Source: Mucilaginibacter mali (GTDB taxonomy: Bacteria > Bacteroidota > Bacteroidia > Sphingobacteriales > Sphingobacteriaceae). From it: a stretch of DNA of 64,000 nucleotides. The notes beneath the pieces are model-generated. The model searched no databases. It was not told where the DNA came from and saw only the letters and a program-made list of their open reading frames with translations. Both the position numbers and the translations under genes were made by a program. Location: positions 1,550,001 through 1,614,000 of the forward strand of contig NZ_CP054139.1 in assembly GCF_013283875.1 (NCBI RefSeq), read 5' to 3'. Positions 51,609 to 64,000 of the stretch are shown here, one piece after another (position 1 is the first letter of the stretch; every line of letters starts with the position of its first letter).

Positions 51609-52760
51609 TTATAAAACCCCTTTAGTACTCGGTAAAACCATATTGTTCACATCGCGCTTTACGGCCATTTTAATGGCTTTGGCAAAGGCTTTAAATATCG
51701 CTTCTATCTTGTGGTGCTCGTTCTGCCCCTCGGCTTTGATATTGAGGTTGCACTTAGCGGCATCGCTGAACGATTTAAAGAAATGGTAGAACATCTCCGT
51801 TGGCATTTCGCCTACCTTTTCGCGTTTAAATTCGGCATCCCAGACTATCCAGTTGCGGCCGCCAAAGTCGATAGCTACCTGCGCCAGGCAATCGTCCATA
51901 GGCAGGCAGAAGCCATAGCGTTCTATGCCGCGTTTATCGCCCAGTGCTTTGGCAAATAATTCGCCCAGGGCAATGCCAGTATCTTCAATGGTGTGGTGCT
52001 CGTCGATATGCAGGTCGCCTTTGGCGGTAATGTCCAAATCGATGCTACCATGGCGGGCGATCTGATCAAGCATATGATCAAAGAAATGCAGACCGGTACT
52101 GATCTTCGCCTCGCCTTTGCCATCAAGGTTAACGCGGATATCAATGTCTGTTTCCTTAGTAGTACGGCGATGGGCGGCCACGCGTTCGCCCACTTTTAAA
52201 AACTCGTATATCTGCTGCCAATCGGTAGTTTGCAGGGCAATAGTGCCGCTTACTTCTTCGGCAAAGGCCTTATCGTCAAACTCCTGCCCGCCTAAATTAC
52301 TGTTATTATTTAGCCAAATGGCCTTAGCGCCTAAATTCCTGCCCAGTAACACATCGTTTTTGCGGTCGCCAATAGTGTACGAGTTCTTCAAGTCGTACTT
52401 TTCGGTATCGAAGTATTGGGTCAATAGGGCAGTCCCCGGCTTGCGGGTAGGGGCGTTGTCTTTAGCAAAAGTGCGGTCGACAATCACATTGCTGAAATGC
52501 ACCCCCTCGTTAGCAAAAGTCTTTAGTACAAAGTTCTGTACCGGCCAGAAAGTATCCTCGGGGTACACGGCCGTGCCCAGGCCATCCTGGTTGGTCACCA
52601 TCACCAGTTCAAAGTCCAGTTCGGCGGCTATCTTGGGGAGGTATTGCAGTGCCTTAGGGTAAAACTCCAGCTTGGCGAACGAGTCGATCTGTTCATCGGC
52701 AGGCTCGGTGATCAAGGTGCCATCACGGTCGATGAAAAGGATGCGTTTTAAATTATTCAT
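51609..52760 (-). CDS. hisB: Histidinol-phosphatase / imidazoleglycerol-phosphate dehydratase
   Basis: A 383-residue bifunctional enzyme as in enterobacteria. Residues about 1-180 are the HAD phosphatase ([12 protein letters not shown] nucleophile motif, [31 protein letters not shown]). Residues about 190-383 are the dehydratase with metal-binding His clusters ([44 protein letters not shown]). The C-terminus overlaps no other gene; its start overlaps the 3' end of hisC by 8 bp, implying coupled translation. Confidence 0.97.
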
Positions 52761-53799
52761 ATTTTGATAAAGTCTCTATCAGTTTAACATTCTCATCCGG
52801 TGTACCCACAGTAATGCGAAGCGCGCCCTCGCAAAGTTCTACCTTGGTGCGGTTGCGTACAATAATGCCGTTTTGCACCAGGTAGTTGTAAATTCCATTG
52901 GCATCGGTTGTTTTTACCAGGATAAAATTAGCGTCGGATGGGTAGATATCCAGCACAAAATTAAATTTGGCCAGTTGTAATACTAACTTGTCCCGCTCAG
53001 TTAAAGTCTCTTTTATCCAATCGTTTACCTGTGTTACATTTTGCAATGCTTCAAGTGCTAATGCCTGCGATGCCTCGTTCATATTGTAAGGTGGCTTTAC
53101 CTTGTTCATCACTTCTATGATCTCTTCGCTGGCGAAAGCCATGCCTACACGCAAGCCCGCCAGGCCCCATGCTTTCGACAAGGTTTGCATCACCACCAGG
53201 TTGCTGTATTCGGTCAGTTCCTGTATAAAGCTTTTCTGGCGGCTGAAGTTAATATAGGCCTCATCTACCACTACCAGTCCGCTGAAATTGGCCAGCAGGG
53301 TCTCCACATCGGCACGTTCCATCGAGTTGCCGGTAGGGTTATTGGGAGAGCATATCCAGATGATCTTGGTATGTTCATCAATGTTACCTGCAATGGCATC
53401 CACATCCAGCTGGTAGTCTTCAGTAAGCGGCACGCGGCGCAGGGCCACATCGTTGATATTGGCCGATACCTCGTACATGCCATAAGTAGGCGGAACGATG
53501 ATCACGTTATCTACCCCCGGGTTGCAGAAGCTGCGGTACAGGATATCAATGGCCTCGTCGCTGCCGTTGCCTAAAAAGATATTGCGGGGTGGCACGCCTT
53601 TTATCTCGCTGAGGCGCTTTTTAACGGCGTACTGCAGCGGATCGGGGTAGCGGTTATAGTTGGTGCCCAACGGCGAACCGTAAGCATTCTCATTGGCATC
53701 TAAATAAACGCTGGCCTCGCCCTTAAACTCGTCCCGTGCGGAAGAGTAGGGGGTAAGGTTTTTGATATTGGGTCTTAGTATTTTGTTAATGTCGAACAT
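52753..53799 (-). CDS. hisC: Histidinol-phosphate aminotransferase
   Basis: A PLP-dependent class I/II aminotransferase converting imidazole acetol phosphate to histidinol phosphate. 348 residues. Key segments: [13 protein letters not shown] near the N-terminus, [30 protein letters not shown] and the PLP lysine in [14 protein letters not shown] (about residue 210). The C-terminal arginine that binds substrate is in GALRITVGT. Overlaps hisB by 8 bp; a family A repeat separates it from hisD. Confidence 0.97.
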
Positions 53800-53824
53800 T
53801 TCTTTTCTTTAAATTTTAAAACCT

Positions 53825-53925
53825 GTCATTGCGAGCGATAGCGTGGCAATCTCGTAGTGGGTTTACATGCGACGAGATTGCCGCGTCGCCCTCCCGCTCA
53901 TGGCCGGTCAGCTCCTCGCAATGAC
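53825..53925. repeat. Palindromic repeat family A, copy 8
   Basis: GTCATTGCGAGCGATAGCG ... GCTCCTCGCAATGAC; inner GGCAATCTCGTAGTGG and CGACGAGATTGCC. It lies in the hisD-hisC gap and ends a few bases before the hisD stop codon on the - strand. Confidence 0.85.
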
Positions 53926-53928
53926 AAA

Positions 53929-55230
53929 CTATTGATTATCATTCAACCGCACACTCACCGCATTTTTATGCGCATGCAAACCCTCCATCTCCGCCAGTAT
54001 CTCTACCGCCGGGCCGATGTTCTGTATGCCCTCGGGCGTGATATGCTGGAAGGTGATCTTTTTCACAAACGAATCAACCGATACCCCCGAATAGGCCCGC
54101 GCATAGGCGCTGGTGGGCAGGGTATGGTTGGTGCCCGATGCATAGTCGCCCGCGCTTTCGGGCGTAAGGTTACCCAGGAATACCGAGCCTGCGTTAATAA
54201 TGCTTCCGGTGATCTGTTGCCAGTACTCGGTAGCCAGTATGAGGTGCTCCGGAGCGTAGGTATTACTAAAAGTTATGGCCTCGTTTAGGTCATTTACCAG
54301 TACGGCGTACGAGTTATCGATGGCCTGCCGTGCTATCTCGGCACGTGGCAGTACACCCAGTTGTAGTTCTACTTCAGCTATCGCATCAGTTAAAATTTTA
54401 CTTGATGTAGAAACCAAAATTGATTGAGAATCAATACCATGTTCTGCCTGCGCTAAAAGGTCGGCGGCAATGTATGCCGAATTGGCAGTCTCATCGGCGA
54501 TTACTAAAACCTCCGACGGACCCGCCGGCATGTCGATGGCGGTGGTAGTTGTCGACTGGATGATGGTCTTGGCCTTGGTGACAAATTGGTTGCCCGGGCC
54601 GAAGATCTTGTCGACCTTAGAAATGCTTTTTGTGCCATACGCCATGGCCGCAATGGCCTGCGCGCCGCCCGCTAAATAGATGCGTTCCACCCCCAGCAGA
54701 CCGGCCACGTAGGCGATGAAAGCGTTCACTTTTCCGTTCTTCTGCGGTGGCGAACAAACAACAATTTCGTGGCAGCCGGCAATGCGGGCGGGGATGCCCA
54801 ACATTAAGAAAGTGCTCGGCAAAACCGCCGAACCGCCCGGGATGTACAGCCCCACTTTTTCTATCGGCCGCGCCTCGCGCCAGCAGCTAACGCCGGGCAT
54901 GGTCTCTACCCTGTCCTCGGCCTTAACCTGCGTTTGGTGAAATTTGTAAATGTTGTTATAGGCCGTTTGCAGTGCCGACTTTTGGTCGTCGGATAGCGTA
55001 GTGGCCAGCTCGGCCAGTTCGTCTTTATCCAGGTACAACTTGTCCAGGTCTACCTTGTCAAATTTTTTGGCGTAGCCTATTAAAGCATCATCGCCATACT
55101 CGCGTACGTTGGCTATCACTTCTTCCACCACGGCACGTATCTCGTTCGCCGGGTCAACATTGCGCTGCACTAACCGCTCGATGTCTTGCTTATTTAGATC
55201 GGAATAATTATAAACTTTCATAAAATTCAT
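53929..55230 (-). CDS. hisD: Histidinol dehydrogenase
   Basis: Catalyses the last two oxidations, histidinol to histidine, with NAD and zinc. 433 residues. Segments: GLYIPGGSAVLPSTFLMLGIPA, the family signature region LAGGAQAIAAMAYGT and DKIFGPGNQFVTKAK, DMPAGPSEVLVIAD, and AEHGIDSQSILV. The catalytic APEHL and GDYASGTNHTLPTS come near the end. The start is at 55230 or three codons later (MKVYNYSD). It is second in the operon after hisG, across a 140-bp gap with family F fragments. Confidence 0.97.
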   Translation of the reverse strand: MNFMKVYNYSDLNKQDIERLVQRNVDPANEIRAVVEEVIANVREYGDDALIGYAKKFDKVDLDKLYLDKDELAELATTLSDDQKSALQTAYNNIYKFHQTQVKAEDRVETMPGVSCWREARPIEKVGLYIPGGSAVLPSTFLMLGIPARIAGCHEIVVCSPPQKNGKVNAFIAYVAGLLGVERIYLAGGAQAIAAMAYGTKSISKVDKIFGPGNQFVTKAKTIIQSTTTTAIDMPAGPSEVLVIADETANSAYIAADLLAQAEHGIDSQSILVSTSSKILTDAIAEVELQLGVLPRAEIARQAIDNSYAVLVNDLNEAITFSNTYAPEHLILATEYWQQITGSIINAGSVFLGNLTPESAGDYASGTNHTLPTSAYARAYSGVSVDSFVKKITFQHITPEGIQNIGPAVEILAEMEGLHAHKNAVSVRLNDNQ

Positions 55231-55237
55231 TCTAAAT

Positions 55238-55366
55238 CCTTAAACCCCCTAACCCCCTAAAGGGGGAATAGAAGGTAGCTCCCCATAATTGTTATTCTAT
55301 CATTTGCATATCTGCACATTCGCACATCTGCACATTCACTCCCCCTCTAGGGGGCTGGGGGGCTGT
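55238..55366. repeat. Family F-like fragments in the hisG-hisD gap
   Basis: Two G/C palindromes, CCCCCTAACCCCCTAAAGGG (around 55246-55267) and CCCCCTCTAGGGGGCTGGGG (55340 on). They flank a CATTTGCATATCTGCACATTCGC-type short-period stretch (TCTGCACATTCGCACA). The gap contains no gene. Confidence 0.6.
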
Positions 55367-55370
55367 GTAT

Positions 55371-56228
55371 TTACGGCCTGCCACATATTTTCTCTATCGG
55401 CATCACCAGTATGCCCTGCGCACCAAGTTTCCTTAATTGGCTTATCTTGGTCCAAAAGTCGCGTTCCTCTATTACCGTGTGCACGGCCACCCAGCCCTCT
55501 TCGGCCAGCGGCACTACCGACGGGCTTTTTATCCCCGGCAGCAGTTCCAGTATGCCCGGCAGGCTATCCTTCGGCGCGTTCATCACCACGTATTTTTTGT
55601 CCTTAGCGTCTAATACCGATTGGATGCGTTGGATCAGTTCCTGCACCAGGTCGTCTTGCTCTATGCCTTCCCGGCCAATCAGGATAGCCTGGCTCGACAT
55701 TACATCGGCAAAAGGTTTAAGGCCGTTGCTTTTCAGCGTGCCACCGGTAGATACGATATCACATATCGCATCGCTTAAACCCAGGCCCGGCGCAATCTCT
55801 ACCGAACCAGATATGGTGCGGATATCTGATGAAATCCCGTTCTTTTGTAAAAATTTACCCAAAATTACGGGATACGAGGTAGCAATTGATTTGCCATTAA
55901 GGCCAGACAGGTCGGTGATCTCGGAGTTATTGGTGATGGCTAATTTCAGCGAGCATTTGCCAAAACCAAGTTCTTGCAGGTATTTTACCTGTACTTCGGT
56001 TTCCTCTATTACATTCTCGCCAACTATACCCAGGTCGGCAATACCATCCTGAACATATTCGGGGATATCATCATCGCGCAGAAAAAGAATTTCCAGCGGG
56101 AAATTAGAAACTGGTGCTATCAGCGAGCTTTTGTAGTTTTCGAAATTTAAGCCGCAATTTTTTAGCAGTTCAACAGACTTTTCGTTGAGCCGACCCGATT
56201 TTTGGATCGCTATTTTAAGTGTTTTCAA
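55371..56228 (-). CDS. hisG: ATP phosphoribosyltransferase (long form)
   Basis: First, committed and feedback-inhibited step: condenses ATP with PRPP. 285 residues is the long, self-sufficient form with a C-terminal ACT-like regulatory domain (about 210-285), so no HisZ is needed. Opening LKIAIQKSGRL, the family signature GLSDAICDIVSTGGTLKSNGL and the tail VHTVIEERDFWTKISQLRKLGAQGILVMPIEK are clear. The start codon is TTG: the upstream frame meets a stop (TAG, 56250-56252) with no ATG between. It is preceded by a histidine-rich leader ORF at 56298-56357 and a Bacteroidota promoter. Confidence 0.96.
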   Translation of the reverse strand: MKTLKIAIQKSGRLNEKSVELLKNCGLNFENYKSSLIAPVSNFPLEILFLRDDDIPEYVQDGIADLGIVGENVIEETEVQVKYLQELGFGKCSLKLAITNNSEITDLSGLNGKSIATSYPVILGKFLQKNGISSDIRTISGSVEIAPGLGLSDAICDIVSTGGTLKSNGLKPFADVMSSQAILIGREGIEQDDLVQELIQRIQSVLDAKDKKYVVMNAPKDSLPGILELLPGIKSPSVVPLAEEGWVAVHTVIEERDFWTKISQLRKLGAQGILVMPIEKICGRP

Positions 56229-56249
56229 AAGGGATTGATTTTGTGTAAA

Positions 56250-56297
56250 CTATAATGAATAAAAACGAGGGTTGTTATTTCGCGTAGAAACATACAT
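56250..56297 (-). CDS. Possible second short leader ORF
   Basis: An ATG directly after the leader peptide's TAA opens a 15-codon frame (MYVSTRNNNPRFYSL) that ends in TAG 21 bases before the hisG TTG. It is in the same frame as hisG. It could couple ribosomes from the leader to hisG, or be chance. It has no histidine codons. Confidence 0.25.
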   Translation of the reverse strand: MYVSTRNNNPRFYSL

Positions 56298-56357
56298 TTA
56301 TCTGATCACCACAACGTGGTGATGGTGCAGATGGAAATGTAGTGCGTAACCGTTCAT
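56298..56357 (-). CDS. hisL: Candidate his leader peptide (19 aa, six His)
   Basis: On the - strand, between the promoter at 56387-56416 and hisG, a short frame encodes MNGYALHFHLHHHHVVVIR then TAA. Six of 19 residues are His, with codons at positions 7, 9 and 11-14, located directly upstream of histidine biosynthesis genes. This is the defining layout of ribosome-mediated attenuation leaders. The last three His codons overlap the left arm of a hairpin (ATCACCAC-GTT-GTGGTGAT, 56305-56323), so a stalled ribosome would keep it from folding. I found no classical GC hairpin with a T-run before hisG, so the read-out step differs or is hidden. Confidence 0.75.
   Translation of the reverse strand: MNGYALHFHLHHHHVVVIR
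56305..56323 (-). promoter_or_regulatory. Hairpin within the his leader
   Basis: ATCACCAC, loop GTT, GTGGTGAT: a perfect 8-bp stem overlapping the clustered His codons and the Val-Val-Val-Ile part of the leader ORF. Probably part of the attenuator switch. Confidence 0.6.
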
Positions 56358-56386
56358 TTTTTTATAGCCTTACTGAGAAGGTGCCG

Positions 56387-56416
56387 CAAATATATACAGA
56401 TATTTATAAAATCAAA
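56387..56416 (-). promoter_or_regulatory. Promoter of the his operon
   Basis: On the - strand TTTG (56413-56416), 18 bases, TATATTTG (56387-56394). This fits the Bacteroidota consensus. Expected start near 56382, about 25 bases before the leader ATG. Confidence 0.75.
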
Positions 56417-56470
56417 AAATAATATACTGTTTTGGTAGACATTTGGTGTTAATGGTTTGCGTTCTGGCAA

Positions 56471-56602
56471 TTTAACCACAAAGTGCACTAAGGTTTGCAC
56501 AAAGTACACAAAGGCATTGTGTATCTTAATTTCTCTTCTTAATAGATAATAAAAGCTTTGTGACCTTTGTGTTTCCTCTTCTTAGTGCCCTTTGTGGTTA
56601 AA
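56471..56602. repeat. Palindromic repeat TTTAACCACAAAG (family K)
   Basis: Left TTTAACCACAAAGTGCACTA and right CTTAGTGCCCTTTGTGGTTA plus AA pair, with inner CACAAAGTACACAAAGGC / GACCTTTGTGT arms. It lies between the divergent his operon and mutS. One copy here. Confidence 0.8.
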
Positions 56603-56680
56603 TCGCCACTCCAACCGCCACCCATGCTTTCCACATAATACCAACTTTTCCACAAATCCCTATATCGCCCGCTAATGCAT

Positions 56681-56715
56681 TAACTTTACCCGTTTAACAA
56701 AAAGGAGCACATTTG
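56681..56715 (+). promoter_or_regulatory. mutS promoter box, Shine-Dalgarno and TTG start
   Basis: TAACTTTA (56681-56688, one mismatch to TAnnTTTG), then AAAGGAG (56701-56707) five bases before TTG at 56713. The strong Shine-Dalgarno decides for the TTG start over the ATG eleven codons later. Confidence 0.6.
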
Positions 56716-59322
56716 GCTAAGAGCGATACCAAGGAAACGCCGTTAATGCAGCAGTATAACCAGATCAAGGTGAAGTACCCCGGTGCTTTGCTGCTGTTTC
56801 GCGTGGGCGATTTTTACGAGACCTTTGGCGAGGATGCCGTTAAGGCATCGGGTATTTTGGGTATCGTACTAACCAAAAGGGCCAATGGCGCGGCTACGCA
56901 CATCGAGTTGGCCGGTTTCCCTCACCATTCGCTGGAAACGTATTTGCCCAAACTGGTACGCGCGGGACAAAGGGTAGCCATCTGCGATCAGCTGGAAGAC
57001 CCAAAGACCACCAAGACCATCGTTAAGCGTGGTGTTACCGAACTGGTTACCCCCGGTGTGGCCATCAGCGATAATATCCTGCAACAAAAAAGCAATAACT
57101 ACCTTGCATCGCTGTATTTCGAGAAGAATACCATCGGCATTGCCTTTATAGATATCTCTACCGGCGAGTTCCTGACCGCACAAGGCAATAGCGATTATAT
57201 CGATAAGCTGCTGCAGGGCTTCAACCCCAGCGAGATCATTTATCCCAAAACCCGTAACAAGGATTTTAAAGACCTTTACGGCGACCGCTTTTATACCTAC
57301 ATGCTGGATGAATGGCCTTACAGCGGCGATTATCCGCAGGAGACGCTGTTGAAGCATTTCGGGGTAAAATCGCTTAAAGGTTTCGGTATCGATAAACTGA
57401 ATTTGGGCATTGTGGCCGCCGGTGTGGCGCTGCACTACCTCAACGAGACCGAACACCGCAACCTGCAGCATATCTCGTCCATCAGCAGGCTGGAAGAAGA
57501 CCGTTACCTGTGGCTGGATAGGTTCAGCATCCGCAACCTTGAACTGGTAGGTTCGCACAACGAGAATGCCATGACACTGGTAGATGTGCTGGATAATACC
57601 TGCTCGCCCATGGGTGCCCGTATGCTGCGCCGCTGGATAGTGATGCCGCTAAAGGAAATTAAGCCAATAAACGACCGCCTTGGTGTGGTAGAATACCTGA
57701 TCGCTTATGATGAACTGCGCGAAGAATTGCAGCAACACATCCGCCAGATAGGCGACCTGGAAAGACTGATCAGTAAGATAGGCCTGCAACGCGCCAACCC
57801 GCGCGAGGTTTGTCAGCTGAAAAAAGCCCTGAAAGCCATTGAGCAGATAAAGATAATCGCCGAGGGGACGGAAAGCGCACCGCTAAAGTCGATAGGCAGC
57901 CAGTTGAACCCTTGCAGCTTTATCAGCGAACGCATAGAAAAAGAACTTCACCCCGAGCCGCCAATTATGCTGGCCAAAGGCGGGGTAATGGCCGAGGGTA
58001 TTAACGAGGAGTTAGACCGCCTGCGCAAGATCGCTTTTGGCGGTAAGGGTTATTTACTGGAGATACAAAAGCGCGAGGCCGAAGCTACGGGAATCCCATC
58101 GCTTAAAGTGGCTTTTAATAACGTGTTCGGGTATTATTTGGAAGTGACGCATAGTCACCGCGACAAAGTGCCTGCCGAATGGATACGCAAGCAAACGCTG
58201 GTGAACGCTGAACGCTACATCACCCCCGAACTGAAGGAATACGAAGACCAGATATTGGGTGCCGAAGAAAAGATCCTGGCGCTGGAGACCAAGTTGTATA
58301 ACGACCTGCTTTACTCGCTGGCCGAATATATTAAACCTATACAACTTAACGCCAATTTGGTGGCTCGATTGGATGTGCTGCTCAACTTCGCGCATATCGC
58401 TATAAAAAATTATTACGTTAAGCCCCAACTGAACGAGGGCCGCGTGATCGATATTAAAGGCGGCCGCCACCCGGTTATAGAGAAGAACCTGCCGCTAGGC
58501 GAATCGTACATTACCAATGATGTTTTCCTTGATTCGGAAGGACAGCAGATCATTATCATTACCGGTCCTAACATGGCGGGTAAATCGGCACTATTAAGGC
58601 AAACAGGCCTCATTGTGCTGATGGCGCAGATGGGCTGTTTTGTGCCAGCTAAAGAAACATCGATAGGTTTGGTGGATAAGATATTTACCAGGGTAGGGGC
58701 ATCGGATAACCTGTCATCAGGCGAATCGACCTTTATGGTGGAGATGAACGAGACGGCCAGCATCCTCAATAACCTGTCCGACCGCAGCCTGATCCTGCTG
58801 GACGAGATCGGTCGCGGTACATCAACTTACGATGGTATCTCTATAGCCTGGGCCATTGCCGAGTACCTGCACAACCACCCTAACTATAAGGCTAAAACGC
58901 TGTTCGCTACGCACTACCACGAATTGAACGAATTGAGCAATACCTTCCCGCGTATTAAGAACTTTAATGTGACGGTGAAAGAGGTAGGCCACCAGATCAT
59001 CTTCCTGCGCAAGCTGGTACCCGGCGGTAGCGAACACAGTTTTGGTATCCACGTGGCCAAACTGGCCGGTATGCCGGGTAAAGTGCTTAGTCGCGCCAAC
59101 GAGATACTAAAGAAACTGGAGAATGAACGCACCGGCGGCGAAAGCATTAAAGAAAGCATGAAGAAAGTGCAGAAGCAAGCCCTGCAACTGCAAATGTTCT
59201 CGATAGATGACCCGATCCTGGTAAAGATCCGCGATACGCTCAACAATCTCGATGTAAATACCCTCACCCCGGTAGAAGCCATGATGAAGCTGGATGAAAT
59301 ACAGCGGATGATAAAAAGCTAA
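56713..59322 (+). CDS. mutS: DNA mismatch repair protein MutS
   Basis: Recognises mismatches and starts repair with MutL. 869 residues, the usual length. The N-terminal mismatch-recognition motif is [21 protein letters not shown] (Phe-x-Glu: FYE). A connector, lever and clamp follow. The C-terminal ABC ATPase has Walker [15 protein letters not shown], the [14 protein letters not shown] signature, Walker [17 protein letters not shown] and the His switch FATHYHEL. The start is TTG with a strong AAAGGAG upstream. It is divergent from the his operon and convergent with the next gene, with a hairpin between. Confidence 0.97.
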
Positions 59323-59330
59323 AAGCCGAA

Positions 59331-59368
59331 GGCTGAAAGCAGAAAGCTTTTTGCTTTGGTCTTTCAGC
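59331..59368. terminator. Hairpin between convergent mutS and the YVTN gene
   Basis: GCTGAAAG-CAGAAAGC-TTTT-TGCTTT-GGT-CTTTCAGC-like pairing (outer arms 59332-59339 and 59361-59368). The same words (AAAGCAGAAAGC, GGTCTTTC) recur at 63366-63492, so it is also a repeat (family G). Confidence 0.6.
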
Positions 59369-59375
59369 TTTTCGC

Positions 59376-62300
59376 TTAACGAATCACCGCCACATACCCG
59401 CTTAGCGGGCTGCTGCCATTATTGAGGTTGATGACATAATAATAAACCCCGGTGGGCAGGTCGGCGCCTTTGTATTTGGCATCCCAGGGACTGGTATAAT
59501 TTACCGAGTGATAAACCTGCTGTCCGCCGCGGGTAAAGATATCTACTGTGCAATTGGGGAAAGTTTCAATGTTTTTGATGATCCAGGTATCGTTCACCCC
59601 ATCGCCGTTGGGGCTAAAAGTATTGGGGATAATGGCCTGTATGCCTTTAACATCAAGCACCGTGAGTGATCCGGGTTTGGTGTCGATGGCGTAATTATCG
59701 GCCGCGCCGCCGCTAACGGTAATAGGGTAAGTGCCCGGGGCCGATGTTTTGATGGCCGTGGTGCTGATGCTGGGCAGGGCGGTTAAAACAGTTTCGTCCT
59801 CGCCATTTACAAAGCCGGCATAGGTGGCGGTCAGCACCGGGTTATCTGTTCCGTATTTGCGCTGCTGATCGTCGGCGGTAATGGTGAGCGGGGCTTTGTC
59901 TACCGTGCTTTTGGCGGTGGCGATGAAGGCATCGGGCACGTTGGTGCTGGTGAGCAGCACATCGCCCGCGTAATTATTGCCCACGGGCGTGGTAGCCGCC
60001 AGCCTGATGTAAATCGTGGTAGATGGGATTGCACCTGGCCCGCCTATCTGCGCGGTACTGCCATAAGTGTTTCTGTCGGTACTGACCTCGAAACCGGTGG
60101 GCGGGATCACTTTTATGGCCTCGGTCATATCGGTAGCCGATACGCTGAAACTAATCTCCGCCGAAGGTGTACCATAAGTAGTGCGGAGCGCGGTGAGCGT
60201 ACCCGTTGGGAAAATATGCTGCACGGCCGGTTTTACGGTGATAGTAAACTGTGCGCTGTTACCCACGCAACCTGTGCCGGCCACAATAAAATCGCCAAAG
60301 GAAACGGGTGAACCAAGTAATGGAATAGTAGTATTCAGGCTGTTATCGGCTGTGTTAATTACCATTACGCTGTTCGAACCATAATTGGCTACATAAACCA
60401 GCTTACCATCGGGACTAACGGAAATACCCTCGGGTTTGCTGCCGGCACCGGTAGGCACTGTTTTGATAATGCTCCTGTCGGATGTACGGATAATAGATAC
60501 ACTGTTGGAGCCAAAGTTGGTTACATAAAGTATACTGCCATCCTTGTTAATAGCTATGCCTGTAGGATTAGTTCCAATCTGTATATCGTCTATTTTTCTC
60601 TGCTCAACGGTACTGATCACCGAAACCGACGCGCTGTTATAATTGGTTACATAAACATAGTTACCATCGGGGCTAACCGCAATATACTGGGGGCTGCTGC
60701 CTACCGTTACAGAATATATTACTTGTTTTGAAGCCGCGCTGGCCACAGATACGGTATTATTTTTGTTAGCCACATAAACCCAACTACCATCGGGGCTTAC
60801 CGCTACGCCAAGTGGGTTTTGCTGTACTATAATACTACCCAATATACCGTGACTGTTGGCATCTATTACCAAAACAGTGTTAGAGTTGCCGTTTGTTACG
60901 TATAAAGTGCTTCCATCGGGACTTAAGGCTAAACCAGAGGGGTTGCTGCCGACAGGGATACCGCCAGTTGCTTTATTAGCCGCCGTATTTATAATGGATA
61001 CTGTGCCGGAATTTTGATTAGCAACAAAAACGGTAGTGCCATCGGGGCTTACTACCGTAGCGTAGGGCTTTTGCCCTACACGTATGGTATTTACTTTTTT
61101 CCCGGTAAGCGTATTAATAACCGCTACGCTGTCCAGATTCCACATAGCTACATAGGCCAGCGGGTCGTTATGCGGCGTTACGGTAATGGTGGCTACGGCA
61201 TCTGTGCTGCCTTTGTTAATGGTTTTAAAGGCGGCGATATTGCCGTCGCCGCTGGCGGGCAGACCGATTGAGGGATCGCTATTGGTCCAGCTATATGATG
61301 TACCTGTCCCGGTAAAATTAACGGCGGCAGTATTTTGCCCTGCAAAACGACTTTGCGGGGCAACATCATCTACCTTAGGCGGGGCGGCAACCACACCGTT
61401 TACAGCTACCTGCAATGGAGTAGCTCCGGCCGACTGTACATCTACCTGGCCCGAGATTAGTCCTTTGGCCGATGCTGCGGAACGCACAAAAATGGTGGTG
61501 CTGGTCACCGTTTCGCCGGTGGGGCTTAGGCTGATGGCGTTGCTGAAACCGCTGTTCGCGTCGCGCGATATTTCAAAACTTGCCGGGGCGGTGAGGTTGA
61601 TATTGCCGGTAAGCAAAGTGCCAGATACCGTAAACTGCTGCAATTTGGGATTGGCCGAGGCGTTACCCTCGCAGGCTGTAATAGTGCCGCCTGCCACACT
61701 GGCAATAACATAGGGGATAGCTGGGGTAACCGTGCCGGTAATTTTTATTTCCTGATTAGCTGCGCCAGCGCTTTTTAAGGTGATGGTGCCGCTCAGCGGG
61801 CCTACGGGGTTACCAGCTGCTATGCGGATATAAAGGTGCACAGGTGGTGGTGTCCCGCCATTGCCGATGACGATAGGCACCGATGTGTAAGTGATATCAT
61901 CCAAACTCATTTCGAAACCCGATGGCGGTGTAAAGGTAGCCGCTATACCCTCGGTCAAATTAACGCCCGAAATATCAACATAAGTTGATTTGGAGGGGAT
62001 ATTTGCCGGTGTGCTTAACACATCGGGAGTGCCATCAACCACAATAGTTGGCGGGGTAGGGTTAATGGTGAAGGTGTAGGTGATAGGCGTACTGCTGGTG
62101 CAGGTGTTGCCGGTAATGAAGTTGCCGAAGGCGATTGGGGCGGTATCAGTAAACGGGATCTTTTTTAAAACTGTGTTGCTTATCGGTTCTATCGCCCACA
62201 CATCATTCGAATCGTAATTAACAACAAAAAGTATCCCCTTTTGCGTCATCGCGATACCATTGGGGTTTTGCCCTACATTGATCACGCCGACAGGTAGGTT

Positions 62301-63314
62301 GCTAAGTGTGTTTACAACAGATACCGCATTATTTCCGGGGTACGTCATATAAAGGCGGCTGCCATCAGGGTTTAAAGTCCCGCCAAAATTAAGGTCGGCA
62401 ATGCCAGCGTTTACGCGTTTTAACTCGTGGGTTTGGGTATTAACAGTTGCAAAGGTTTGTTCATAAATAAGCCTGTTATTATCAAGCGCATCGCGGGATA
62501 TAGCATAGTTAATAAGGTAAGCCGTTGCCCCATCAGGGCTGAACAATATTTGATGCGCATCGGCGCCCCCTGAGTCGGTAATGACACTAAGTTTGTTTGT
62601 AAATGGTGTATATTCGTGAAGATGGTCATCGCCTGCTATATAGACCGAACTGCCATCGTTGTTCACCGTTACAGCAGTTGGATGTCCCGGAAATGGTACT
62701 AACCTGTAAAGGCCATATGCGGGGTCGGTAGTATCAATAACGTAAATACTTTGATCGTCGGAGTTGGCCACATAAAGCCTTGTGCCATCAGGGCTGACAT
62801 CTAAACCCATTGGTTTTTGACCAACTGGGATATCGGTTATCCATTTATTGTTTACACCATCAATCACCGAAACGGTATTACTATTTAAATTACTTACATA
62901 CACCCGTGTACCATCCTTGCTTACCGCTACGCCATAAGGGTTGTTACCTACACGTATTTGGGTTACTATGCTGTAGTCGTCGGTATTTATTACGGTAACC
63001 CTGTTAGCAACCCGGCTGGGGATATAGGCATAAATAGGCCGCGGTGTGGGTGTAGCGGTGATGGTAACCATAATAGGCGTACTGGTATTATTAATAGCTT
63101 TAAACGGCGCAATATCCCCCGTGCCATTTGCAGTCAAGCCGATGCCGGTGGTGGGATTAAACCAGTTATACACACAGCCCGATGGCCCGCCCCAAATAAT
63201 GGGTGCGGTCATTTGCCCGTTGGTAACAGCCGGGCCGGTAATTTGGGCAATAGCCGACCGGGGCAGTAAAAAAACCACCAGCAGGGTATATACAATAAGC
63301 CAAAATCGCTTCAT
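59376..63314 (-). CDS. Large secreted YVTN beta-propeller protein with T9SS type B (CHU_C) C-terminal domain
   Basis: 1312 residues with a signal peptide (cleavage near 24, AIAQ). It has two seven-blade-like YVTN propellers, about residues 95-390 and 715-1005, built of 40-residue units with SPDG..[VL]YV[AT]N and VIDT-type strands. Between and after them are beta-sandwich modules (FTPPSGFEMSLDDITYTSV, PASFEISRDANSGFSN and PPTGFEVSTDRNTYGS are three copies of one type). Then comes an MBG-like domain (LTITADDQQRKYGTDNPV, about 1140-1220), and the C-terminal gliding-motility domain starting IPNTFSPNGDGVNDTW and ending YYYVINL...GYVAVIR. The last domain is the export and anchoring signal of type IX secretion. 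Likely cell surface; ligand unknown. Confidence 0.9.
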   Translation of the reverse strand: MKRFWLIVYTLLVVFLLPRSAIAQITGPAVTNGQMTAPIIWGGPSGCVYNWFNPTTGIGLTANGTGDIAPFKAINNTSTPIMVTITATPTPRPIYAYIPSRVANRVTVINTDDYSIVTQIRVGNNPYGVAVSKDGTRVYVSNLNSNTVSVIDGVNNKWITDIPVGQKPMGLDVSPDGTRLYVANSDDQSIYVIDTTDPAYGLYRLVPFPGHPTAVTVNNDGSSVYIAGDDHLHEYTPFTNKLSVITDSGGADAHQILFSPDGATAYLINYAISRDALDNNRLIYEQTFATVNTQTHELKRVNAGIADLNFGGTLNPDGSRLYMTYPGNNAVSVVNTLSNLPVGVINVGQNPNGIAMTQKGILFVVNYDSNDVWAIEPISNTVLKKIPFTDTAPIAFGNFITGNTCTSSTPITYTFTINPTPPTIVVDGTPDVLSTPANIPSKSTYVDISGVNLTEGIAATFTPPSGFEMSLDDITYTSVPIVIGNGGTPPPVHLYIRIAAGNPVGPLSGTITLKSAGAANQEIKITGTVTPAIPYVIASVAGGTITACEGNASANPKLQQFTVSGTLLTGNINLTAPASFEISRDANSGFSNAISLSPTGETVTSTTIFVRSAASAKGLISGQVDVQSAGATPLQVAVNGVVAAPPKVDDVAPQSRFAGQNTAAVNFTGTGTSYSWTNSDPSIGLPASGDGNIAAFKTINKGSTDAVATITVTPHNDPLAYVAMWNLDSVAVINTLTGKKVNTIRVGQKPYATVVSPDGTTVFVANQNSGTVSIINTAANKATGGIPVGSNPSGLALSPDGSTLYVTNGNSNTVLVIDANSHGILGSIIVQQNPLGVAVSPDGSWVYVANKNNTVSVASAASKQVIYSVTVGSSPQYIAVSPDGNYVYVTNYNSASVSVISTVEQRKIDDIQIGTNPTGIAINKDGSILYVTNFGSNSVSIIRTSDRSIIKTVPTGAGSKPEGISVSPDGKLVYVANYGSNSVMVINTADNSLNTTIPLLGSPVSFGDFIVAGTGCVGNSAQFTITVKPAVQHIFPTGTLTALRTTYGTPSAEISFSVSATDMTEAIKVIPPTGFEVSTDRNTYGSTAQIGGPGAIPSTTIYIRLAATTPVGNNYAGDVLLTSTNVPDAFIATAKSTVDKAPLTITADDQQRKYGTDNPVLTATYAGFVNGEDETVLTALPSISTTAIKTSAPGTYPITVSGGAADNYAIDTKPGSLTVLDVKGIQAIIPNTFSPNGDGVNDTWIIKNIETFPNCTVDIFTRGGQQVYHSVNYTSPWDAKYKGADLPTGVYYYVINLNNGSSPLSGYVAVIR

Positions 63315-63365
63315 GCAGGTTTATTTACATGGCAGGCATTAATGTATAAATATATTAAATGCAGG

Positions 63366-63492
63366 TGAAAGCTTAAAGGCGAAAGGTGAAAGCAGGATGG
63401 TTAGCGGGATGCTTTTAGTTTAAAGCCGAAAGACCAAAGCAGAAAGCAGGATTCGTGTCCCCTGTAGCTTTCCGCTTTGGTCTTTCGGCCTT
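63366..63492. repeat. Family G repeat cluster
   Basis: Repeated short words GAAAGC, AAAGGCGAAAGG, CCGAAAGACCAAAGCAGAAA and their complement TTTCCGCTTTGGTCTTTCGG. The right half forms a hairpin of about 20 bp. It separates the YVTN gene from the DUF418 gene on the same strand and resembles 59323-59368. Confidence 0.65.
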
Positions 63493-63520
63493 ATGTGCTC
63501 TGTTTTTCTGCTTTAGACTT

Positions 63521-64000
63521 TTAATTTTTGACTTTCCTCAACGGCAGGTGTTTGTTGTAGCTCAACTGTCGCCATATCCACTCAACCAAACCATAGTTAT
63601 ACCGCGCCAGCCACCATTTGCTAAAGTATATTTGCGCAATGTAAATGCTTAGCGGCAGCGCCCAGTAAAACCAAAACGGCATGGTTGATCCCAGCGCTAA
63701 ACCCACCCCGCCAAAAACAAAGAACGAGATGATGTTTTGCACCATATAATTGGTCAGCGTCATTTTACCAATGGCTTCCAGCGCGCGGAAAAAGGCTTTC
63801 AGTTTACCGTTAACATACAGGCAGCACAGGGCCGATACGGTGCACAGCATGGTAACGATGATATACGGATAGCGGACATTATAGTACTTGAAAAACTCCC
63901 ATTTCATTTTTTGAGAGAGCGGGAAGAAGATGGTCAGTAACATAAAACCAACCAGGGTACACCAAAAAATGCGCTTCACCTGCTTTTTGTTATCGGCCAG
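63521..64000 (-). CDS. DUF418 (YeiB-like) membrane protein, C-terminal part
   Basis: Partial: the frame stays open to the right edge, so the N-terminal part is outside. The visible 160 residues hold three to four membrane spans and the DUF418 signature region: LEAIGKMTLTNYMVQNIISFFVFGGVGLAL, then YWALPLSIYIAQIYFSKWWLARYNYGLVEWIWRQLSY. Family members are inner-membrane proteins, probably transporters or acyltransferase relatives, with no settled function. No operon partner is visible. Confidence 0.8.
   Translation of the reverse strand: MADNKKQVKRIFWCTLVGFMLLTIFFPLSQKMKWEFFKYYNVRYPYIIVTMLCTVSALCCLYVNGKLKAFFRALEAIGKMTLTNYMVQNIISFFVFGGVGLALGSTMPFWFYWALPLSIYIAQIYFSKWWLARYNYGLVEWIWRQLSYNKHLPLRKVKN

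Follow-up and report, generated by a model that had tools for sequence, protein, structure and literature searches.

The window, by which we mean the whole analysed stretch of 64,000 nucleotides, comes from a Mucilaginibacter-type soil bacterium and carries a his operon on its minus strand. The first gene is hisG (55371–56228; TIGR00070, 190 bits), which is present as a single copy in the genome and starts, according to the start-codon tables, with TTG. It is followed by hisD (53929–55230; TIGR00069), hisC (52753–53799; TIGR01141), and a bifunctional hisB (51609–52760; NF003937). All features of the operon and its leader described here lie on the minus strand. Upstream of hisG, the sequence predicts a Bacteroidota-type promoter (56387–56416), composed of TTTG (56416–56413), a spacer of 18 nt, and TATATTTG (56394–56387); the block TATATTTG recurs across the Mucilaginibacter alignment. 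Between promoter and hisG lies a short ORF (56298–56357), kept in relatives, which encodes MNGYALHFHLHHHHVVVIR in 19 codons and ends with TAA. Six of its codons are for His, and four of these are consecutive. An earlier note, made from the sequence alone, had described this promoter, the ORF with its six His codons, and a hairpin over the codons, and all of them are confirmed. The order of promoter, ORF, and hisG also stands. The ATG of the leader at 56357 is 29 nt past the -7 box, for which the earlier note gave about 25, and the TTG of hisG at 56228 is 69 nt past the leader stop. The 161-nt leader stretch has a predicted fold of −34.1 kcal/mol (z = −3.5), which is equalled by one of 200 shuffles.

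Two repeats are found outside the leader. On the upstream side of the promoter (56464–56609), there is an imperfect palindrome of a dispersed repeat (CTTTGTGNNCTTTGTG) with 344 matches in the genome at no more than one mismatch; the reversed pattern, used as a control, has 3. The strand of the exact copies, among the matches listed, seems tied to the chromosome region. At 63421–63493, close to the beginning of a 1312-aa ORF, lies a strong inverted repeat (AAGCCGAAAGACCAAAGC...GCTTTGGTCTTTCGGC) that may be an intergenic terminator; Rfam matches to miRNA families at this repeat are far under the gathering score.

His-rich leaders are common upstream of hisG in other genomes. Under a strict rule (an ATG-started ORF with at least four His in eight codons), 69 of 71 regions from the family of the window (f1) are positive, as are 70 of 98 that represent 24 further families of its phylum. 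Overall, 139 of 169 regions of other genomes contain such a leader, against 1/845 dinucleotide shuffles and 0/169 reverse complements. The His leader upstream of hisG is not a product of chance, and this conservation supports in kind the proposal of the earlier note that the leader reports charged tRNA-His. The family sample of 71 regions covers 18 genera, with 60 regions of 17 genera plus 11 from a phylum sample. The latter consists of 109 regions (29 automatic and 80 hand-picked, mostly one per genus and with a preference for listed matches of higher score) out of 325 hisG-bearing genomes, and leaves out distant hisG, for example f18 with many genomes. Loci L192–L219 and L280–L300 are outside all counts. 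The strict rule is negative in f15 (0/3), f56 (0/2), f10 (0/3; 1/3 with a looser rule), and single regions of f9, f19, f26, f39, and f48, among which f39 becomes positive with the looser rule.

Inside the family, the leader is seen in 70 of 71 regions. The exception is L257 of genome G446, where a covariance model places the element 262 nt before hisG, outside the stretch first searched. Thus, no relative in the family sample keeps the his genes and loses the ORF or its His codons, a pattern that the earlier note had considered fatal to its proposal. A closer set (mostly Mucilaginibacter, also Pedobacter, Daejeonella, and one labelled Flavihumibacter) gives the same picture: 80 of 81 sequences (79 loci and the window) have a His-rich short ORF ending 52–88 nt before hisG, and the sole miss, L054, has only 20 nt of upstream sequence. 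The His positions were compared across 45 different Mucilaginibacter-type leaders, all exactly 20 codons long, a set that does not include the 19-codon leader of the window. Positions 10 and 13 are His in 43 of them and position 7 in 39; positions 14 and 16 are less constant, with 31 and 29. Because synonymous changes are few in these leaders, the constraint on amino acids is not cleanly separated from that on RNA.

The covariance model, built on the leader and two hairpins described below (P1 and P2), matches 93 of 121 genomes of the family. Across the phylum it matches 19 of 247 genomes: seven from the window's family and 12 from f4 (genus g8), the latter with weaker scores. Of 95 listed matches, 76 were compared with hisG, the other 19 having no hisG place among the matches listed; 75 of the 76 share contig and strand with hisG and precede it by 34–262 nt, and the remaining one is on a second contig of G472. 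A weak second match is observed in G494. Twenty of the 28 family genomes without a match are listed. Ten of these have no hisG among the matches listed, and seven belong to g180 or g182, both of which have variant leaders. In G398 (g185) hisG is present, but the genome is outside the sample, and G631 and G633 are outside the hisG listing. The variant His leaders of g182 (L249, L250, L265, and L272) and g180 (L223, L224, and L236) are without the P2 consensus; in g182 the leader is longer and hisG starts with ATG.

The window fold and covariation place the hairpin P1, ATCACCAC-GTT-GTGGTGAT (56305–56323), over the last His codons, and the window fold also gives it an extended form (56293–56341). 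The second hairpin, P2 (TGTTTC-TACGC-GAAATA; 56276–56292), is located directly past the leader stop and comes from alignment and covariation. In most members of the family P2 is a hairpin of 5–6 bp; in 52 of 66 sequences the distance from the leader stop is 2–10 nt. Of the 66 loops, 48 are UACGU or UACGC, seven are UACUU, and 11 have another sequence, for example GAAU in L231 and L234. The exact block TTTCTACGNGAAA occurs once in the whole genome, at hisG, so that copies of P2 at other operons, at least in this exact form, can be rejected. The alignment (A1) does not include g180 and g194, and g182 and L257 are left out of the alignment, P2, and swap sets. Among 51 aligned rows, the loop-closing pair of P2 is CG in 42 and GC in nine, and one pair of P1 is GC in 41, AU in nine, and GU in one. 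Taken together, P1 and P2 have 97.0% paired cells and 20 double-change cells, against 3.9 in shuffles. The 3′ arm of P2 can alternatively pair with leader codons 3–6. Here 69.2% of cells are paired, and the number of double-change cells is 61, compared with 39 in shuffles. For P1 with P2 and likewise for the alternative pairing, the covariation score and the double-change count are above all 500 shuffles and all six slides; in the alternative pairing, two of five covariation measures are not above the shuffles (172 and 290 of 500).

A third helix, P0, is long-range. Its 5′ strand (56348–56373) comprises the end of the 5′ UTR and the leader start codon, and its 3′ strand (56245–56273) ends 16 nt before the hisG start. 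P0 is predicted by the window fold and by a cross-genus swap test. Swap tests and constrained folding used 54 representatives, which are 65 rows less the redundant ones, with L244 left out of the swap tests. The cognate strands of P0 reach −10.8 kcal/mol, against −7.5 kcal/mol with strands of other genera, and none of 4000 permutations, which like the shuffles ignore phylogeny, is as good. The same is true of the P2 arms (0/4000) and of leader codons 2–9 with the P2 3′ arm (−7.2 for cognate and −4.8 for swapped pairs; 0/4000). The support for P1 is from covariation, not from the swap test. Two control pairings give 186/4000 and 198/4000; both are near the 5% tail, so a small share of the signal may be composition. 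At least six paired nucleotides of P0 are present in 48 of the 54 representatives. The six below this number are L224 and all five representatives of g189, a genus in which no clear P0 is seen. The 3′ end of P0 is at a median of 13 nt before hisG. P0 also tends to close the leader's own start, the predicted openness of the leader AUG being 0.26.

The predicted folding depends on the position of the ribosome, which was modelled as a 31-nt unpaired stretch in a loop without energy cost. In the two stall states, the A site is placed where the His run begins or two codons later. For the 54 representatives, the probability of P2 is 0.06 in free RNA, 0.78 and 0.71 in the stall states, and 0.03 with the ribosome at the stop. 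The competing pairing behaves in the opposite way, with 0.69, 0.01 and 0.03, and 0.61, respectively. In 77 sequences of the close set (without L051, L054, L077, and L081), P2 has 0.43 in free RNA, 0.80 and 0.85 under stall, and 0.03 at the stop. In this mostly Mucilaginibacter set P2 has a different competing partner and already forms in part on the free RNA. In the window itself P2 has 0.71 without a ribosome, 0.78–0.97 under stall, and 0.00 at the stop; because P2 is already formed in the free RNA, the contrast there is mainly between stall and stop. The earlier note had suggested folding the leader with and without a ribosome on the His codons. Computation favours P2 under stall over the stop state, but in the window P2 forms without a ribosome too. 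Mutually exclusive RNA structures chosen by ribosome position are supported by covariation and computed folding, more weakly in the window. In g180, P2 barely forms even under stall (0.10).

The effect of the stall on the region before hisG is small in the same models. P0 is largely still paired, with summed pairs going from 17.5 to 11.4. In 45 representatives with proximal hisG, the openness of the hisG start (−6 to +9) is 0.66 in free RNA and 0.65 under stall, and that of the stretch −35 to −8 goes from 0.47 to 0.51. In the close set the latter stretch opens from 0.47 to 0.60 on stall; with the ribosome treated as a full barrier, the values are 0.63 and 0.65. That the start codon of hisG itself is occluded is rejected, its predicted openness being equal between the states. 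Stems of at least 6 bp at the start codon are also rejected as a signal, since they are common by chance (323 of 1090 shuffles).

The start codon of hisG differs between groups. Starts were taken from the alignment to hisG of the window or from an in-frame ATG rule, which was the same for all sets, and hisG was considered proximal at no more than 95 nt from the leader. No in-frame ATG is found near the start in 56 of 57 proximal regions of the window's family (by alignment 49 TTG and seven GTG), nor in any of 80 sequences of the close set (60 GTG, 18 TTG, and two matching only from inside the gene). An in-frame ATG is present in all 14 regions of the family with a farther hisG (13 displaced, four of them g182, plus L257) and in 90 of 98 regions of other families; these counts track lineages and are not independent events. 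P0 is kept at the displaced loci L264, L273, and L279, where it ends 81–112 nt from hisG. This fits a transcriptional output better. At L262, L264, L273, and L279, where the displaced hisG starts with ATG, the stretches between P0 and hisG have a common GCATG motif. The hairpin P2, the P0 helix, and the family-wide non-ATG start of hisG are additions to what the earlier note had described.

Intrinsic terminators were sought by a rule limited to hairpins of up to 40 nt. Outside the family it flags 72 of 98 regions, against 3 of 169 in shuffles. In the window's family it flags 6 of 71 regions and finds no terminator distinct from P1 between the leader and the first gene: L223 is flagged in the promoter or 5′ UTR, and L256 and the four g3 regions (L258, L276, L091, and L092) are flagged at P1 itself. 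In the four g3 regions, P1 has a T-rich stretch behind it, and its 3′ arm is past the leader stop. For the window, the earlier note was correct: there is no GC-rich terminator followed by a T-run ahead of hisG. With the looser rule, the 98 regions outside the family are divided into 68 with leader and intrinsic terminator, 13 with leader and no terminator, and 17 with no leader. In f4, the terminator is present in 22 of 22 regions. The 3′ part of the leader in the other families pairs better with the 5′ arm of its own terminator (−15.2 kcal/mol) than with the arms of other families (−10.0 kcal/mol), and none of 4000 permutations is as good; the control with the terminator 3′ arm gives 229/4000. 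Such family-specific pairing is expected of an antiterminator. Judged by sequence, the 68 regions look like classical attenuators.

In six loci of f3, f4, and f35 (L177, L184, L162, L139, L146, and L172), the hisG start ATGAGTA can pair with a TACTCA located about 23–50 nt before it. This TACTCA stretch resembles the complement of the terminator 5′ arm (GTTTGAGTA) and could be a second, translational layer, although generic start-codon stems are frequent by chance.

The leader by itself is very probably a cis-acting sensor, and charged tRNA-His is the signal that we infer. Regarding what the sensor controls in the window's family, we lean, at slightly less than even confidence, toward a terminator-less version of his attenuation at the level of translation. 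Its dependence on ribosome position is a computed one, and translation as the output is our inference. The 19-codon leader ORF would be read during transcription. When charged tRNA-His is scarce, the ribosome would stall on the His run and cover roughly leader codons 1–11. The covered codons could then not pair with the arms of P2, and P2 would form. When histidine is ample, the ribosome would reach the stop and cover the 5′ arm of P2. After its release, the leader would fold into the extended P1 and the long-range P0, which joins the leader start region to the stretch ending about 13 nt (16 nt in the window) before hisG. This closed form would lower initiation at hisG with its weak start codon, and the stalled ribosome would keep the region open. 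That starvation should favour P2 is concluded from the folding, which gives P2 on stall and not at the stop; that P2 is the "on" state is presumed from the physiology of biosynthetic operons.

The same sensor might instead act on termination without a canonical terminator, which we consider possible but rather doubtful. Termination would then occur at P1 or the extended P1 beside a pyrimidine tract in some genera, or through Rho at a C/U-rich tract after P2, with P2 as the antiterminator. The ribosome logic of P2 suits this role, relatives outside the family use real terminators and antiterminators, and the openness of the hisG start, being constant between the states, points the same way. Besides, the P1 of the four g3 regions with its T-rich stretch is flagged as a terminator, and the extended P1 would evade the rule, because the rule takes hairpins of up to 40 nt. 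In the 10 nt past P2, at least six T are seen in 20 of 54 representatives and at least four C in 21 of 54. The T-tract is, however, not conserved, with only 0–3 T of 10 in five Mucilaginibacter representatives, and termination gives no account of P0 or of the non-ATG start of hisG. A classical attenuator of the enterobacterial type, whose separate intrinsic terminator was missed by the tools, would explain the leader, the His run, and the mutually exclusive pairings, and it is the type seen in the 68 regions of other families; it is very unlikely here, as none of the six flags in the family is a separate hairpin under a rule that rarely flags shuffles. The attenuation-type control proposed by the earlier note is supported in part: sensing by a His-codon leader is, and classical transcription attenuation is supported for the other families but not for the window's. 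The note was justified in doubting the output and in naming another hairpin, a Rho-type step, and control of the TTG of hisG as candidates, no terminator distinct from P1 being found in the family.

Two other explanations concern the block past the leader. P2 might be a binding site for a protein or RNA, with the His leader merely controlling access to it. The recurrent UACGY and UACUU loops are in favour of this, since the loop of a plain antiterminator could vary, and the 11 sequences with other loops are against it; from sequence comparison we judge such a site improbable. The block might also be a second short ORF (MFLRE..., MFLREI) rather than a hairpin. In Mucilaginibacter it is mostly ATG TTT CTA CGY GAA with one synonymous change. 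The start codon or the frame is not kept elsewhere (ACG in g4, CTG in L061, and an altered frame in g3 and g191), and the pairing is preserved through double changes. A second ORF is rejected as the reason for the block, with hardly any chance left to it. The anatomy, conservation, and covariation of the element are established, and its output may be translational or termination-like.

It can be speculated, with somewhat more doubt than belief, that Mucilaginibacter, Pedobacter, and their kin have swapped the terminator of an ancestral Bacteroidota his attenuator for a self-locking RNA. In such an RNA, P0 would let the leader start region and the stretch before hisG sequester one another, a stall on the His codons would trade the long leader helix for the hairpin with its largely constant UACGY loop, and the non-ATG start of hisG would make the lock effective. 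If true, an amino-acid operon would be under translational attenuation in a phylum largely without Shine-Dalgarno-led initiation, while the terminator form persists in other families. The regions with and without a terminator could be considered as a natural series for asking how an attenuator changes its output while its sensor stays, and the non-ATG start of hisG across the family might be linked to the leader RNA. His-leader control of hisG appears widespread in the sampled families of Bacteroidota, and only hints of it were found in print. In the open-licence PMC literature searched, no description of the form seen in the window's family was found.

The enterobacterial his attenuator, which we take to be Rfam His_leader (RF00514), is similar in that a short ORF with a His run is directly upstream of hisG, and the position of the ribosome picks exclusive foldings. 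The window has this ORF between promoter and hisG. The difference is that no separate intrinsic terminator is found in the family of the window; to our knowledge, P0 and P2 are not part of the enterobacterial element. Rfam, which also includes the T-box family, has no match over the leader in a scan of 52000–64000 at E up to 5. Its only matches there, seven in number and away from the leader, are to five miRNA families, tfoR, and AsdA, and all are far under the gathering score. In 20 his leader loci at gathering score, Rfam gives only a tRNA, and no His_leader, T-box, or Bacteroid-trp. The Bacteroid-trp RNA (RF01692) presumably belongs to trp genes with Trp codons. It resembles the present element in being listed as a probable cis-regulatory RNA of Bacteroidetes (PMC2864571), and differs from it by the lack of matches over the leader and in the 20 loci. 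Short ORFs reminiscent of leader peptides are mentioned for Bacteroides in PMC7366714, and the word "leader" is absent from the main text of a his-gene survey of the superphylum (PMC8305728). Translational attenuation of erm genes is similar in that a leader-stalled ribosome remodels the RNA and enables downstream translation (for example PMC8274638). There the signal is an antibiotic, and here the hisG start itself is not predicted to be occluded. P0 does end at a median of 13 nt before it, but the stall leaves its predicted openness unchanged. From the same phylum, a transcriptome study of Flavobacterium psychrophilum (PMC9723704) reports strong indications that amino-acid operons are preceded by leader-peptide attenuators. 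It also names a 5′ element before hisG that has no Rfam hits and is shared by further genera of Flavobacteriaceae. If f4 corresponds to Flavobacteriaceae, as we presume, that family is of the terminator type in all its 22 regions, unlike the form in the family of the window.
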